The translations under genes and the position numbers were made by a program. Positions 308-5,939 of a stretch of DNA of 6,764 nucleotides are shown here, piece after piece. The notes beneath the pieces are model-generated. The model was not told where the DNA came from. It did no database searches and was given only the letters and a program-made list of their open reading frames with translations. The stretch comes from Bacteroidota bacterium (lineage in GTDB: Bacteria; Bacteroidota; Bacteroidia; Bacteroidales; UBA1556): contig QNXT01000318.1 of assembly GCA_003973505.1 (NCBI GenBank), positions 1 through 6,764 on the forward strand, written 5' to 3'. The stretch's first letter is position 1. Every line of letters starts with the position of its first letter.

Positions 308-3300
308 ATGCTAAACAAAATAATAAGATTCTTCCTCGAAAACAAACTGGTAACCGTTTTGGTATTGGTGAGTTTTATCGCTTGGGGATTGGTTACTTCA
401 CCCTTTGGTTGGGATACCGGGATTTTACCCAGCGACCCTGTGCCTGTGGATGCCATTCCTGATATCGGGGAGAATCAGCAAATCGTATATACCGAATGGC
501 CCGGTCGTTCACCCCAAGATATCGAAGATCAGGTTTCATACCCTTTGACCACGGCTCTTTTGGGAATTCCCGGGGTAAAAACCATTCGTTCCAATTCTAT
601 CTTCGGAGTATCCAGTATTTATTTGATTTTCGACGAGGGAATTGAGTTTTATTGGAGTCGTAGTAGAATATTGGAAAAGTTGAACTCATTGCCTGCGGGA
701 ACCTTACCCGATGGCGTAACTCCCGCTCTTGGTCCCGATGCAACCGCTCTTGGTCAAGTGTATTGGTACACCCTCGAAGGGCGTGACTCGCTTGGCAAAC
801 CTGCCGGTGGTTGGGATCCGCAAGAACTGCGCTCTGTGCAAGATTTCTATGTGAAATATGCCTTGACTTCGGCCAAAGGAGTTTCCGAAGTCGCTTCCAT
901 TGGTGGTTATATCAAAGAATATCAGATTGATATCGACCCCAACGCCATGAAAGCTGCCGGAGTGAGTATCTCTCAAATTATTGGTGCTGTAAAAAAGAGT
1001 AATCTCGATATCGGCGCTCGTACCATTGAGTACAATCGTGCCGAGTATTTGATTCGTGCTTTGGGTTATGTAAAATCGCTCGAAGATCTTGAAGAATCGG
1101 TTGTTTCTGTAAAAAACAATATTCCCATCCGCCTTAAAGATGTGGCCAAGGTGCAGTTTGGACCTGCCACGCGCCGAGGTGGACTTGATAAGGGTGGTGC
1201 TGATGCCGTAGGCGGTGTTGTAGTTGCCCGTTATGGTGCAAACCCTTTGGAAGTAATCAATAATGTGAAAGAGAAAATTGCGGAAATTGAGAAAGGATTA
1301 CCCTCAAAAAAATTGGCTGATGGAACAACTTCCAAAGTAACAATCATTCCATTTTACGATCGCTCGGGATTGATTCATGAGACATTGGGAACATTGGAAG
1401 AGGCTTTATCGCTGGAAATTTTAATTAGTATTATCGTGGTGTTAATCTTAGTTTTTAACCTGCGTGCCTCTTTCCTAATTTCCTCTCTTTTACCCATTGG
1501 TGTATTGATGACTTTTATTGCCATGCGAAAATTTGGTGTCGATGCCAATATTGTTGCCCTATCCGGAATTGCCATTGCCATTGGCGTGATGGTGGATGTG
1601 GGCGTGGTATTTACCGAAAATATTATTCGACATACGGGCTTGCCTCAGAATAAAGGAGCCCAAGGCAAAAAGTTGATGGAAGTGATTTATACCGCTACTA
1701 CTGAGGTGGCTCCTGCGGTAATTACTGCCATTGCTACTACCGTTATTAGCTTTATGCCGGTGTTTGCCATGGAGGCTGCCGAGGGTAAACTGTTTCGCCC
1801 ATTGGCATTTACCAAAACATTTGTAATGCTTTCGGCTATGGTGGTTGGTTTGGTGATTATCCCTGCATTGGCTCATTTTGTTTTTTCCATAAAAGTGGAT
1901 CGTAACAAGATTCGCCAGGCACTGAATATCGCTTTGGCCGCTTCCGGAATTAGCTTTGTGTTTTTTGGACAATACTTCCTTGCTTTTGCTATTGTAGCTG
2001 TGGCCATCAATAATTTCTTTGCCTATCTATGGAAAGAAAGCCATAAGAAATATGTGAACTTTATAAATATTGCAATCATTTTGATTGTTGTAGTAAAATT
2101 CTTAAACCAAGAGTGGATGCCGCTGGGAGCACAGAATAGCGAGTTTATAAACTTTGCTTTTGTGGGAATTATGATAGCCGTAGTACTTGGCTTATTAAGC
2201 ACCATTGTTTACTTCTATCCACGTATTTTGACTTGGGCTTTGAATAATAAATTCAAATTCTTATCGCTGCCCATCTTCGTAATTATATTTGGAATCACCG
2301 CATGGCAGGGATTTGATAAAATGTTTGGCTTTATACCTGATGCTGTGCGTCAAACTGCCGTTTGGAAATCCATCAATAAAACCCTACCCGGTATTGGTAA
2401 AGAGTTTATGCCCTCGCTCGACGAAGGCTCATTCCTCTTGATGCCTACCACCATGCCACACTCTGGCGTTGCCGAGAATTTGGATGTGATTCGTATGGTA
2501 GATAAAAAAGTAAACTCCATTCCCGAAGTGGATAATGTTGTTGGAAAATGGGGTCGTGTGAACTCGGCTCTGGATCCTGCACCCATTTCGATGTACGAAA
2601 ATGTAATTAATTATAAGCCTGAATATATATTGGACGAAAAAGGCTATCGTATGCGCTTTATGACAAATGATGACGGTGCCTATGTATTGGCAGACGGAAC
2701 AACCTTTGATCCTAAAAAAGATAAATTTCGTGCTTTTGATAAAAAGGAATTGGTTGTTGACCCCGATGGAAAATATTTCCGTCAATGGCGTGGTCATATC
2801 AAATCTCCCGATGATATTTGGAAAGAGATTGTAAAGAACTCGAAGATTCCGGGACTAACCTCTGCACCAAAACTGCAACCCATTCAAACGCGTTTGGTGA
2901 TGTTGCAAACAGGTATGCGAGCACCCATGGGAATTAAGGTTTTTGGTCCTGATTTGGAAACCATCGAAAAGGTAGGATTGAAAATTGAAAAGCTATTGAA
3001 GAATGTTGAAGGCGTTTCCCCAAGTTCGGTTTTCGCTGATCGTGTGGTAGGAAAACCCTATATCGAGATAAAAATCAATCGTAAAGCCATTGCGCGTTAC
3101 GGAATTACCATACAAGATTTTCAAACCACCATCAGTTCGGCAATCGGCGGCATGGCTTTATCGTCAACCGTAGAAGGTCGCGAGCGTTATCCCATTCGTT
3201 TGCGCTATGCGCGAGAGTTTCGTGATAATCCTGATGATTTGAAAACGATTTTAATTCCCACAAAATCAGGCGTACAAGTGCCTTTGGGCGAATTAGCAAG

Positions 3301-4177
3301 TATAGAATATACACGAGGCCCTCAGTTGATTAAGAGTGAGAATACTTTCTTGGTAGGTTATGTGATTTTTGATAAAAAATCCAATTATGCCGAGGTTGAT
3401 GTAGTGGAAAATGCTCAAGAGTATTTTGATGCTCGCATTGCCGATGGAACTCTTATCATTCCCCAAGGAGTGAACTATAAATTTACCGGAAATTATGAGA
3501 ATCAAATTCGTGCAACCAAGCGATTGCTGATTGTAATTCCCATTGCCTTATTGGTAATATTCTTAATTCTGTATTTCCAATTCCGTTCGGTGATTGGTGC
3601 CAGCCTGATATTCTCAGGAATATTTGTGGCATTCTCCGGAGGATTTATCATGTTGTGGCTTTATGGCCAACCTTGGTTTATGAATTTCAATATTGGAAAT
3701 ATCCATTTGCAGAGTCTGTTCCAAATTGCCCCCATCAATCTGAGTGTGGCCGTTTGGGTAGGGTTTATCGCCCTCTTTGGTATTGCAACCGACGATGGAG
3801 TATTGATAAGTACTTATATGCAACAAATTTTTGAAGAAAAGAAGCCCGGTACAGTGGCTCAGGTTCGAGCTTATGTTTTAGAAGCGGGTAATAAACGTGT
3901 GCGTCCGGCTATTATGACAACCGCAACAACCCTAATTGCCCTGTTGCCGGTGCTTACTTCAACAGGAAAAGGTTCTGATATTATGGTCCCCATGGCCATC
4001 CCGATTTTTGGAGGAATGGTTATCGCAACCCTAACCATTTTTGTGGTTCCCGTGCTATTTTCATTTTGGCAAGAACGATTGTTAAAAAAGTTACCAGAAG
4101 CTGAAATGGCCACTGAAACTATGGATGCTATCCAAAATACAAATAACGAAGAAATGGAGGCAAACAATGAAAAATAA
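308..4177 (+). CDS. cusA: CusA/CzcA-family heavy-metal RND efflux pump, Cu(I)/Ag(I) type
   Basis: This is the inner-membrane proton-driven pump of a tripartite metal exporter, 1289 residues long. It has TM1 at about 14-31, a first periplasmic domain (about 45-365), a TM cluster (about 368-528), a second periplasmic domain (about 690-1065) and a final TM cluster (about 1072-1252). TM4 reads GIAIAIGVMVDVGVVFTEN (420-438): Asp430 and Glu437 match the E. coli CusA relay residues Asp405 and Glu412, and the AIG-MVD form is that of monovalent-metal pumps, not the DFG form of Zn/Co/Cd pumps. Met712, Met762 and Met865 match the CusA copper-binding triad (573, 623, 672), and Glu764 follows Met762 as in CusA. 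Compared with CusA there are about 114 extra residues between TM4 and the first triad Met, including extra hydrophobic segments (about 538-575, 584-598, 612-635). There are about 54 extra between the second and third Met, and a charged Asn/Glu-rich tail (1260-1289). The start has no clear Shine-Dalgarno, but MLNKIIRFFLENK is a normal family N-terminus. The stop overlaps the tolC start. Confidence 0.96.
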   Translation: MLNKIIRFFLENKLVTVLVLVSFIAWGLVTSPFGWDTGILPSDPVPVDAIPDIGENQQIVYTEWPGRSPQDIEDQVSYPLTTALLGIPGVKTIRSNSIFGVSSIYLIFDEGIEFYWSRSRILEKLNSLPAGTLPDGVTPALGPDATALGQVYWYTLEGRDSLGKPAGGWDPQELRSVQDFYVKYALTSAKGVSEVASIGGYIKEYQIDIDPNAMKAAGVSISQIIGAVKKSNLDIGARTIEYNRAEYLIRALGYVKSLEDLEESVVSVKNNIPIRLKDVAKVQFGPATRRGGLDKGGADAVGGVVVARYGANPLEVINNVKEKIAEIEKGLPSKKLADGTTSKVTIIPFYDRSGLIHETLGTLEEALSLEILISIIVVLILVFNLRASFLISSLLPIGVLMTFIAMRKFGVDANIVALSGIAIAIGVMVDVGVVFTENIIRHTGLPQNKGAQGKKLMEVIYTATTEVAPAVITAIATTVISFMPVFAMEAAEGKLFRPLAFTKTFVMLSAMVVGLVIIPALAHFVFSIKVDRNKIRQALNIALAASGISFVFFGQYFLAFAIVAVAINNFFAYLWKESHKKYVNFINIAIILIVVVKFLNQEWMPLGAQNSEFINFAFVGIMIAVVLGLLSTIVYFYPRILTWALNNKFKFLSLPIFVIIFGITAWQGFDKMFGFIPDAVRQTAVWKSINKTLPGIGKEFMPSLDEGSFLLMPTTMPHSGVAENLDVIRMVDKKVNSIPEVDNVVGKWGRVNSALDPAPISMYENVINYKPEYILDEKGYRMRFMTNDDGAYVLADGTTFDPKKDKFRAFDKKELVVDPDGKYFRQWRGHIKSPDDIWKEIVKNSKIPGLTSAPKLQPIQTRLVMLQTGMRAPMGIKVFGPDLETIEKVGLKIEKLLKNVEGVSPSSVFADRVVGKPYIEIKINRKAIARYGITIQDFQTTISSAIGGMALSSTVEGRERYPIRLRYAREFRDNPDDLKTILIPTKSGVQVPLGELASIEYTRGPQLIKSENTFLVGYVIFDKKSNYAEVDVVENAQEYFDARIADGTLIIPQGVNYKFTGNYENQIRATKRLLIVIPIALLVIFLILYFQFRSVIGASLIFSGIFVAFSGGFIMLWLYGQPWFMNFNIGNIHLQSLFQIAPINLSVAVWVGFIALFGIATDDGVLISTYMQQIFEEKKPGTVAQVRAYVLEAGNKRVRPAIMTTATTLIALLPVLTSTGKGSDIMVPMAIPIFGGMVIATLTIFVVPVLFSFWQERLLKKLPEAEMATETMDAIQNTNNEEMEANNEK
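4156..4160 (+). promoter_or_regulatory. Strong Shine-Dalgarno for the tolC start at 4167
   Basis: GGAGG lies inside the last codons of cusA, six bases before ATG 4167. That ATG sits within ATGAAAAATAA, so the tolC start and the cusA TAA stop (4175-4177) overlap by 11 bases. This arrangement is typical of translational coupling. It is the only proper Shine-Dalgarno in front of any of the gene starts in the window, and it decides in favour of 4167 over the more upstream in-frame ATG at 4125 and over the internal ATG at 4560, which has no comparable site. Confidence 0.75.
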
Positions 4178-5792
4178 TCGAATTATTATAACGAAGAACA
4201 ATTCTTTATTCCAGTGGAATACAAAGATGCAGAAAATAGGTTTAACCAAATATTCCAAGCAGAGTATAGCCCTAGTGGGGCGAAATGATGACATCCAAGG
4301 GATTCATTTTATGGATATAAAGTCTGAACAAAATCTGTTATTGGATAAGTGGGAAACAAAGCATATAAATACAAATTCAATTATTCAGCGGAATACGAAA
4401 ATGCAAAAATTTGGTTTAGCCAAATCCTCCAAGATGAGCATAGCCCCAGAGGGGCGAAATGTTTGTAGCCACGGGATTTATCCCGTGGATGCAAAGTTCA
4501 AACAAAAGCCGCTGGCGGATAATGTTAAACAAAAGAGTACATCTTTATTCCAGCGGAATATGCAGATAATTAAAACCATAGCAGCAAGCCTATTGTTATT
4601 AATATCTATATCAACCTATGCTCAGGACGAATTAAATGGATATCTAAAACAAGCCGCCGAGAATAATCCCGGTTTAAAATACCAATTCAATAATTATATG
4701 GCTTCTTTGGAGCGCGTTGATCAGGTAGCCAGTCTACCCGATCCTCAAATTGCATTTGGTTATTTTATTCTTCCGGTGGAAACCCGTAACGGTCCGCAGA
4801 CATTCAAACTATCGTACAGTCAGATGTTTCCATGGTTTGGAACCCTGAATAATCAGGAAAGTATGACTACTCACGCTGCCAAATCGAATTATGAGAAATT
4901 CGAAGAAGCAAAATCTCAACTATTTCTGGATGTGAAGTCGGCTTATTATCAGCTGTATTATATTCAAAAAAGCCAGCAGATTACCAAGGAGAATATGAAA
5001 ATTTTGGAAACATTCAAAAATATGGCTTTGATAAAAATTGAAGCAGGCAAAGCTTCGGCAGTGGATGAATTGCGTGTGGAGATGCAGTTGGCCGAGTTGG
5101 AGAATAAGCTCCTTTACTTAAACGACCAATGGACTGTAAATACAGTGAAGTTTAACCGTTTGTTGAATGTGCAAAGCAATGCTTTAATTCAAATTCCTGA
5201 TTCGCTTTGGAACGATGATTTTTTATTGAGCTATACCGCTGCATTAGACAGTTTACAAGCCAATAATCATCAATTGCAAAGTTTTGATCACCAAATGGAA
5301 TCTTATCAAAATCAGGAAACGGTAGCCAAGAAAAAGGGAACACCCAATATCTTGCTCGGAGCTGATTATATAGGAATTGGCGACAATGGGTTGAATGCCA
5401 ATAGCGGTAAAGATGCCCTATTTGTAAAGGTGGGAATTACCATTCCCATGTACCGCAAAAAGTACAATGGTGCCATTCGTGAGGCCGCTTTGATGCAGCA
5501 AGTTACCCAAGATCAAAAGATAAATAAGATCAATGCCTTGGAAACACTTTTTGAAAAATCGTGGAGCGATTATTTGGATGCCAAGCGCAGGGTTGATCTC
5601 TATGCAAAGCAAACGGAATTGGCAGAGAAGTCGGTTCGGATTTTACAAAGTGAGTATTCTTCAAAGGGGAAAAACTTTGAAGAGATTCTCCGCATGGAAA
5701 ATGACCTGCTGAAATATGAGTTGGAAACACAAAAAGCTTTGGCCGATAAACAGGCTGCCATAGCATTTTTGGAATATTTAATTGGAAGGTAA
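4167..5792 (+). CDS. TolC/CusC-family outer-membrane efflux protein with repeat-derived N-terminal extension
   Basis: This is the outer-membrane duct of the tripartite pump. From ATG 4167 the product has 541 residues; the recognisable protein begins at Met132 (ATG 4560) and is 410 residues, the usual family size. Residues 132-152 form a classic signal peptide: MQIIKT, a hydrophobic run ASLLLLISIS, then a TYA-Q cleavage site. There is no lipobox cysteine, unlike E. coli CusC. After cleavage come the hallmarks of the outer-membrane efflux repeat: NNPGLKYQFNNY, SLPDPQIAFGYF, SQMFPWFGTL, then long coiled-coil helices (for example DVKSAYYQLYYIQKSQQ and a Glu/Lys/Ala-rich C-terminal helix) in two repeats. 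Residues 1-131 are not TolC sequence: they are basic, Asn/Lys/Gln-rich, and encoded by two diverged palindromic repeat units. The 4167 start is supported by a strong Shine-Dalgarno and overlap with cusA, but a 131-residue leader before a signal peptide should hinder export. So either 4560 is also used, or the leader is removed. Family call is secure; start is uncertain. Confidence 0.9.
   Translation: MKNNRIIITKNNSLFQWNTKMQKIGLTKYSKQSIALVGRNDDIQGIHFMDIKSEQNLLLDKWETKHINTNSIIQRNTKMQKFGLAKSSKMSIAPEGRNVCSHGIYPVDAKFKQKPLADNVKQKSTSLFQRNMQIIKTIAASLLLLISISTYAQDELNGYLKQAAENNPGLKYQFNNYMASLERVDQVASLPDPQIAFGYFILPVETRNGPQTFKLSYSQMFPWFGTLNNQESMTTHAAKSNYEKFEEAKSQLFLDVKSAYYQLYYIQKSQQITKENMKILETFKNMALIKIEAGKASAVDELRVEMQLAELENKLLYLNDQWTVNTVKFNRLLNVQSNALIQIPDSLWNDDFLLSYTAALDSLQANNHQLQSFDHQMESYQNQETVAKKKGTPNILLGADYIGIGDNGLNANSGKDALFVKVGITIPMYRKKYNGAIREAALMQQVTQDQKINKINALETLFEKSWSDYLDAKRRVDLYAKQTELAEKSVRILQSEYSSKGKNFEEILRMENDLLKYELETQKALADKQAAIAFLEYLIGR
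4200..4373 (+). repeat. Palindromic repeat unit A inside the tolC 5' region (degenerate copy)
   Basis: The unit begins with the hairpin TATTCC-AGT-GGAATA (4207-4221), continues with a stretch related to unit B, then has a weakened first palindrome (GCCC-tagt-GGGGC, 4269-4281) and a decayed second palindrome (about 4293-4315, where unit B has a perfect one). In the tolC frame it encodes 58 residues (12-69), starting NSLFQWNTKMQKIGL and containing SIALVGRN. It aligns along its length with unit B, which is 6 bases shorter, so the frame is kept. The decay of the palindromes suggests this is the older copy. In another frame, just after the cusA stop, the same DNA reads FIPVEYKDAENRFNQIF, so the repeat is open in more than one frame. 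Confidence 0.8.
4374..4541 (+). repeat. Palindromic repeat unit B inside the tolC 5' region (intact copy)
   Basis: The unit begins with TATTC-agcg-GAATA (4382-4395) and then carries two perfect palindromes: GCCCC-AGA-GGGGC (4443-4455) and, 13 bases on, CCACGGGA-TTTA-TCCCGTGG (4469-4488). It ends with an imperfect GCC-GCT-GGC element near 4508-4516. It encodes 56 residues in the tolC frame (70-125), beginning NSIIQRNTKMQKFGL and including SIAPEGRN. A third copy of the unit's leading edge (TCTTTATTCCAGCGGAAT, 4542-4559) follows and abuts the ATG of the signal peptide. The layout resembles repetitive extragenic palindromes of the kind mobilised by RAYT (TnpA-REP) transposases; no such transposase is in this window, so that link is inference. 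Confidence 0.82.
4542..4562 (+). repeat. Partial third copy of the repeat edge, abutting the signal-peptide ATG
   Basis: TCTTTATTCCAG-GGAAT recurs here nearly as at 4202-4220, and in diverged form at about 4377-4394. TATTCC (4546-4551) pairs with GGAATA (4555-4560) around an AGC loop, so the A of ATG 4560 is the last base of the stem. This marks the right boundary of the repeat block. The hairpin would partly hide the internal start from free 30S subunits, unless ribosomes arriving from 4167 melt it. Confidence 0.7.
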
Positions 5793-5805
5793 ATTGGGAA
5801 GCTAA

Positions 5806-5852
5806 TTGCCAAAGAGGGGCAATATATTTATAGTCACGGGTTTTAACCCGTG
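5806..5852. repeat. Two-hairpin palindromic element downstream of tolC, related to unit B
   Basis: The first stem is TTGCC (5806-5810) with GGCAA (5818-5822), containing AGAGGGGC as in unit B. The second is CACGGGTT-TT-AACCCGTG (5835-5852), a perfect 8-base stem. The spacing between the two hairpins (about 13-14 bases) and the CACGGG/CCCGTG core match unit B at 4443-4488. The element starts 14 bases after the tolC stop. It has no T-tract, so it is not a convincing intrinsic terminator, though the stems could protect or process the mRNA between tolC and cusB. With units A and B it places the same repeat family on both sides of the tolC body. Confidence 0.78.
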
Positions 5853-5876
5853 GTAAGAAAGAGAAAAGATAATTTA

Positions 5877-5920
5877 GGTTTTGGCGCATGTTTTTGCCCC
5901 GCAAAAACTTTGACAAAACC
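5877..5920. promoter_or_regulatory. Nested inverted repeat in the cusB leader, function unknown
   Basis: An outer 7-base stem, GGTTTTG (5877-5883) with CAAAACC (5914-5920), encloses an inner perfect 8-base stem, GTTTTTGC (5890-5897) with GCAAAAAC (5901-5908), around a CCC loop. A small internal loop of 6 and 5 bases separates the stems. It is unlike the CACGGG-type repeats beside it. It ends 19 bases before the cusB ATG. It could be a second repeat family, an operator, or a leader structure affecting cusB translation. The sequence does not decide between these, and it lacks a following T-run expected of a terminator. Confidence 0.5.
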
Positions 5921-5939
5921 GACTTAAAAAGATAAGAAC

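Follow-up and report, generated by a model that had tools for sequence, protein, structure and literature searches.

Genes of the locus and the open leader of tolC

The stretch of DNA analyzed here (the window, 6,764 nucleotides) carries, on its forward strand, a cusA-like RND efflux pump gene (positions 308 to 4177; Pfam ACR_tran, E 9.9e-179) and a tolC-like outer-membrane efflux gene of 541 codons from ATG 4167 (4167 to 5792; Pfam OEP, E 4.8e-37). The open reading frame list and Pfam also placed the 3' end of a DUF302 gene in the window and the 5' part of a cusB-like gene downstream of tolC. The cusA stop codon TAA occupies positions 4175 to 4177, giving an overlap of 11 nt with the start of tolC, and a GGAGG sequence (4156 to 4160) lies six bases upstream of ATG 4167, thus confirming the coordinates given in an earlier note on this DNA.

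The signal peptide of TolC (residues 132 to 152; 4560 to 4622, forward strand) was recognized by hydropathy, with its cleavage site placed by eye; the 15-residue mean hydropathy reached 2.34 from residue 134, compared to a maximum of 0.46 in the leader. ATG 4560 is codon 132 of the tolC frame, and the 131 open codons that the earlier note had described ahead of it were indeed found: this pre-signal leader (4167 to 4559, forward strand) is open in the tolC frame only, without a single in-frame stop, the other five frames containing 11, 8, 7, 3, and 6 stops. Farther upstream, the tolC frame stays open as far as ATG 4125, within cusA; ATG 4167 is preferred over it because it has a counterpart in the tolC gene of a related contig, L001 (see below). 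The encoded leader is basic (23 K/R versus 9 D/E) and lacks a hydrophobic stretch. AlphaFold2 modeled it with low confidence (block means of 23 to 36 over residues 1 to 120, residues 1 to 124 all below 50), which we take as weak support for disorder, since the alignment was shallow, with 10 sequences, and the model poor overall (mean pLDDT 57, pTM 0.33).

Two repeat units lie within the leader on the forward strand, unit 1 at 4200 to 4373 (58 codons) and unit 2 at 4374 to 4541 (56 codons). Positions 4200 to 4348 and 4374 to 4522 are 72% identical without gaps over 149 aligned bases, and a 35-nt unit edge occurs in three copies, at 4194, 4368, and 4533, the third of which (4533 to 4567, forward strand) runs across tolC's own SLFQRN-Met codons. 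The units measure 174 and 168 bases and thus differ by exactly 6 bases, as had been claimed. The earlier description of the two as diverged copies of one palindromic unit agrees with their identity and with the third edge, but the palindrome turned out to be intact only in unit 2 (arms 4462 to 4477 and 4480 to 4495) and has decayed in unit 1. RNA folding gave a z score of -5.6 for 4438 to 4500 in unit 2 and of -1.5 for 4231 to 4349 in unit 1. The differences between the units are spread over codon positions 1, 2, and 3 (14, 12, and 16, respectively); 23 codons differ in the encoded residue and 6 only silently, and no sign of residue-level constraint between the units is visible.

A probable two-hairpin REP family in Bacteroidales

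The REP core within unit 2 (4443 to 4488, forward strand) is composed of a first hairpin, GCCCC-AGA-GGGGC (4443 to 4455), 9 nt, the tag GTAG (4465 to 4468), and a second hairpin (4469 to 4488) with a 9-bp stem and a loop of 2. GTAG REPs were scored as GTAG or GTGG located 0 to 2 nt ahead of a 7- to 20-bp stem with a loop of 2 to 5 nt. By this definition unit 2 is a GTAG REP (GTAG at 4465, offset 0, stem 9, loop 2), and unit 1 holds no such combination of GTAG/GTGG and stem-loop. The design of the unit 2 element agrees with the definition of REPs cited in PMC6006769. CGTC, the tag of Rickettsia palindromic elements and CGTC REPs, is absent from both strands of 4440 to 4500. With regard to the unpaired tag expected of a GTAG REP, the RNA fold of 4438 to 4500 in the window copy pairs UUUGUA with UGCAAA to form an outer stem.

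The REP copies of the window are one intact, one decayed (unit 1), and one degenerate, the last located in the tolC-cusB gap (5814 to 5852, forward strand) and consisting of GAGGGGC, the tag ATAG (5830 to 5833, offset 1), and an 8-bp hairpin. tolC is therefore accompanied by a REP copy near each end, unit 2 and this degenerate one. A larger palindrome follows the latter at 5877 to 5922, with GGTTTTG and CAAAACC placed around a TTTTTGC/GCAAAAA stem. The region from 5800 to 5925 folds with a z score of -3.1; BLAST of 5850 to 5935 against the fetched loci returned no match, a motif resembling the palindrome was seen by eye in locus L044, and an Rfam search of the window returned nothing at the gathering threshold.

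The exact hairpin pattern GAGGGGCGAAAT...TAGCNACGG was found in none of 395 genomes of the class. This pattern was too strict, since a DNA similarity search of 393 genomes of the order to which G001, the genome of L001, belongs, the scoring being limited to the two top candidates per genome, gave unit-like matches in 11. Among the 14 matches listed, 12 start at hairpin 1, one corresponds to hairpin 2 and the stretch that follows it, and one (in G241) falls outside the core. A palindrome pattern allowing two mismatches was run on the 11 matching genomes and on G001, rows on both strands of one palindrome being counted once. It detected 48 distinct sites in four of these 12 genomes (37 in G028, 5 in G241, 3 in G141, and 3 in G196) and none in the other eight, while the reversed control pattern had no match in the same 12. 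Hairpin 1 stands ahead of the tag in 25 of the 29 palindrome copies taken from 30 fetched loci of other Bacteroidales, and its arms change together across genomes (GTTCCCC/GGGGAAC, AACTCC/GGAGTT, and ATCCC/GGGAT). These data suggest a family of two-hairpin REPs, tagged GTAG or ATAG, in Bacteroidales. The family may be absent from the 2013 survey of such repeats, since the part of that survey considered here (PMC3733652) assigns GTAG repeats to Proteobacteria, Cyanobacteria, Chloroflexi, and the PVC group and mentions Bacteroidetes for CGTC repeats alone. In genome G036, half elements made of one hairpin and GTAG were seen in four tandem copies with a 49-nt period (L046, 1501 to 1679) and in three copies at another locus (L039, 662 to 980).

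After merging, 28 distinct REP copies remained in the other genomes; 3 of them overlap open reading frames of at least 100 codons, and none of these three frames was matched by Pfam; we therefore make no claim of other in-gene copies. Against plasmids and phages, the unit gave only matches of 29 to 30 bp at chance level (E about 0.5), and the exact palindrome was not found in viral contigs.

Matches to Y1_Tnp were obtained in all 12 genomes, weak and partial ones in G001 and G221. At 4 of 25 distinct loci from these genomes (in G036, G028, G196, and G282), a two-hairpin element was located no more than about 600 bp from a Y1_Tnp gene; the remaining 21 showed none, and the count was 0 for the 30 tolC loci that served as a control (128,553 bases). 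The stem sequence of the Y1-adjacent element of G028 (L096/L099) is unrelated. One of the four adjacent loci, L097 (G196:C1:3870900-3873600), chosen because its adjacency was already visible, contains a tandem pair of nearly identical Y1 transposase genes; a two-hairpin element lies 3' of each gene, and GCCCC/GGGGC hairpins are found on both sides of each, which makes a REPtron-like array.

Relatives with no, one, and two units

Relatives were drawn from the 120 listed of 1642 homologues found, among which the closest were P0001 (93% identity), P0002 to P0004 (76 to 84%), and P0005 and P0006 (80 to 82%). Contig L001, from a Bacteroidales metagenome-assembled genome, carries a tolC gene that agrees with P0006 as far as the two were compared. 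Its start has the same position, the same 11-nt overlap with cusA, and the same upstream GGAGG as in the window, and is followed by 14 codons, MRTNQLLKSIIQRN, and then by MQYIKTL, the repeat being absent; a further ATG lies directly ahead of this start. Genome G001 as a whole does not contain the unit, the best hit being a 20-bp match (E 0.08) and the palindrome pattern having no match in it, and within its family tolC was found in 1 of 11 genomes, namely, G001 itself.

One unit is present in P0002, P0003, and P0004 and two are present in P0001. Together with the window, the unit is in frame in all five repeat-bearing sequences, a count to be read with the reservation that P0001 to P0004 are predicted proteins, i.e., open frames only, among which relatives with stops would be missed. 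P0004 reads MKTN, insert, KQLLKSIFQRN, so that both insert edges match L001, and the third edge of the window (SLFQRN-Met) aligns with KSIIQRNMQ of L001/P0006. The window and P0001 to P0004 thus carry, between aligned flanks, an in-frame intragenic insert that L001/P0006 lack. The earlier note had proposed that the repeat entered near the original start and was then duplicated, the frame staying open through an upstream start, and had suggested looking for orthologues without it. L001, with its 14-codon leader behind the same cusA-overlapping start, is such an orthologue, and the series of L001 (no unit), P0002 to P0004 (one unit), and P0001 (two units) fits this proposal. Sequence comparison hence supports an insertion between the start and the signal codons, in frame, of what would have been one unit first, with a later tandem duplication.

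Searches of the protein collection with the repeat part, which reach only proteins sharing exact 5-residue words and missed P0003, returned P0001, P0002, and P0004 only, and detected no further protein of comparable length in which a unit is translated. P0004 also has, immediately behind the region of signal cleavage, 39 residues with no counterpart in the window.

Comparison of the window with P0001 showed that 101 of 128 aligned leader residues are alike, compared to 385 of 390 in residues 152 to 541 (the mature part taken one residue early, with the split at 151/152). The leader thus evolves fast relative to the mature part. Within it, the core and tail of unit 2 (residues 93 to 131) are alike at 37 of 39 positions, which may reflect some constraint on unit 2 or sequence exchange between units. 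In places where the window and P0001 differ, the units of one protein share residues, K.SK in the window and ISSNA in P0001.

Probable translation of the inserted repeat

We consider it likely that a REP was inserted between the original tolC start and the signal peptide and is now translated as an unconstrained, probably discarded leader. According to this scenario, a two-hairpin GTAG-tagged REP, mobilized most probably by a transposase of the Y1 (RAYT/TnpAREP) type encoded elsewhere in the genome, would have entered tolC of a Bacteroidales-like bacterium downstream of the cusA-overlapping start and upstream of the signal codons, and the unit would have been tandemly duplicated in the line leading to the window and P0001. 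Ribosomes would start at ATG 4167, translation of tolC being presumably coupled to that of cusA, and read through the repeat, thereby adding to the signal peptide n-region a basic and probably unstructured stretch of 131 residues. This leader would stay in the cytoplasm and be removed with the signal peptide, so that the mature channel would be unchanged. Because the leader would be discarded, selection would keep the frame open and ignore most residues. A pre-signal place tolerating almost any open insert would explain the survival of the REP there.

The main alternative, to which we give a small but real chance, is that the repeat is extragenic: TolC would begin at ATG 4560, the upstream open frame would be accidental and kept by duplication, and the REP would be at most an RNA element of the tolC message leader. 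Di Nocera et al. suggest that most REPs in annotated N termini are perhaps extragenic, the starts being misannotated (PMC3733652). The earlier note had put the chance of a 127-codon open run at about 0.2% under uniform codon use; a composition shuffle of the 131 codons gave an open frame in 1 of 20,000 trials, but this is the wrong test for a duplicated unit, and one open unit subjected to 42 random substitutions over 150 nt was still open in 13 to 23% of trials. Frame retention between the units, which the note had regarded as the stronger argument, is thus weak evidence alone. Codon use also counts against a translated leader, since it is not coding-like (-0.11 bits per codon, compared to 0.34 to 0.38 in three mature tolC pieces); the score of the signal peptide itself is low as well (-0.16 bits per codon). 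Furthermore, short leaders are the rule: in a survey of 30 tolC loci from other genomes, including L001, the longest ATG-started leader ahead of the column of Met 132 had 35 codons (at one locus the contig ended too early, and at another no ATG was present upstream of the aligned part), and at 28 of them the first ATG lay at most 21 codons before, or close after, this column, or none was seen, L018 (35 codons) being the only locus beyond 21. The absence of longer leaders elsewhere also counts in favor of an insertion in tolC of the window.

The identity of residue 132 nevertheless argues against a start at ATG 4560. P0003 and P0004 both have Thr at the aligned position, and the insert-free P0005 has Ile; TolC therefore cannot begin at this position in P0003 and P0004, and the conserved start is, judging from the alignments, the upstream one, whose overlap with cusA is common to the window and L001. 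P0003 has another Met shortly before the signal peptide and P0004 has two inside the REP-derived part, making a start within the insert possible in these two proteins. The in-frame state of the unit in every repeat-bearing sequence, read with the reservation given above, likewise speaks against an extragenic repeat. Both ATGs have an A at -3, a base that helps initiation in Flavobacterium johnsoniae (PMC6847099), and ATG 4560 stands directly before the signal peptide, but the 20 bases ahead of it contain 5 A, compared to 10 ahead of ATG 4167. The GGAGG before 4167 is no argument, because Bacteroidia ribosomes are reported not to recognize such sequences (PMC9976891). As to the two outcomes that the earlier note had offered, the Thr or Ile found in P0003, P0004, and P0005 thus favors the long translated leader over an internal start at 4560.

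A more elaborate version of the translated-leader reading strikes us as quite improbable: the REP family would have been made into a translated pre-signal domain, with the signal-proximal copy retained because of either its residues or its hairpins (which would set TolC versus CusA output via ribosome pausing or slowed export) and the distal copy drifting, and pre-signal regions would be a general safe site for in-frame REPs. We rate still lower, as very improbable, the proposal that the leader of the window has been put to use, either as a basic n-region that alters targeting or slows export or through hairpins that pause ribosomes and tune tolC relative to cusA. The strong fold of the REP core and the similarity of the core and tail of unit 2 to P0001, higher than that of the whole leader, are in favor of such a use, as are the autotransporters, whose long signal sequences likewise carry an additional charged N-domain ahead of an ordinary Sec signal (PMC2805444); that of EspP comprises 55 residues in all (PMC2805444), while 131 repeat-derived residues precede the signal in the window. 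However, the differences between the units are about equal at the three codon positions, the palindrome of unit 1 has been lost, and near relatives manage without the insert. Finally, tandem repeats are prone to misassembly, but there is only a negligible chance that the doubling in this leader arose during assembly of short metagenomic reads, since the units are only 72% identical and P0001, a distinct protein 93% identical to that of the window, shows the two-unit arrangement as well, with changes of its own.

In-frame REPs and Rickettsia palindromic elements within genes are already established (PMC3733652, PMC6006769, PMC3767692), and among the titles and abstracts listed in searches of the open-licence literature none described a REP insertion upstream of a signal peptide. 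The tolC case, read as a translated insertion, is thus a new example of a known event, with unusually clear before-and-after relatives. Sequences without the insert, with one unit, and with two form a natural progression in which a mobile palindrome was taken up into a coding sequence, at a site whose extra residues are probably cut away. The REP literature has raised the doubt that N-terminal REPs of annotated proteins may be misannotated rather than genuine codons, and this progression allows a clean test of the question.

GTAG REPs within coding sequences are described as more frequent at the N terminus than at the C terminus, with clusters encoding 43 to 82 residues (PMC3733652). The window element shares with them the GTAG tag followed by a short stem-loop but has a second hairpin ahead of the tag, and its unoccupied relative and the lost internal Met argue for a truly coding N-terminal case. 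Rickettsia palindromic elements are likewise palindromes within existing open reading frames that leave the frame intact (PMC3767692), and proteins with an N-terminal RPE-1 are reported to be expressed in vivo (PMC3733652); those of R. conorii belong, by description of the tag, on which alone they were compared, to the CGTC group (PMC3733652), and the window element to the GTAG group. REPs inserted without a frame break are also described in tnpAREP genes of subclass 2.4, abundant in Bacteroidetes (PMC6006769), where the host gene is the transposase itself, whereas in the window it is an outer-membrane efflux gene, entered ahead of its signal peptide.
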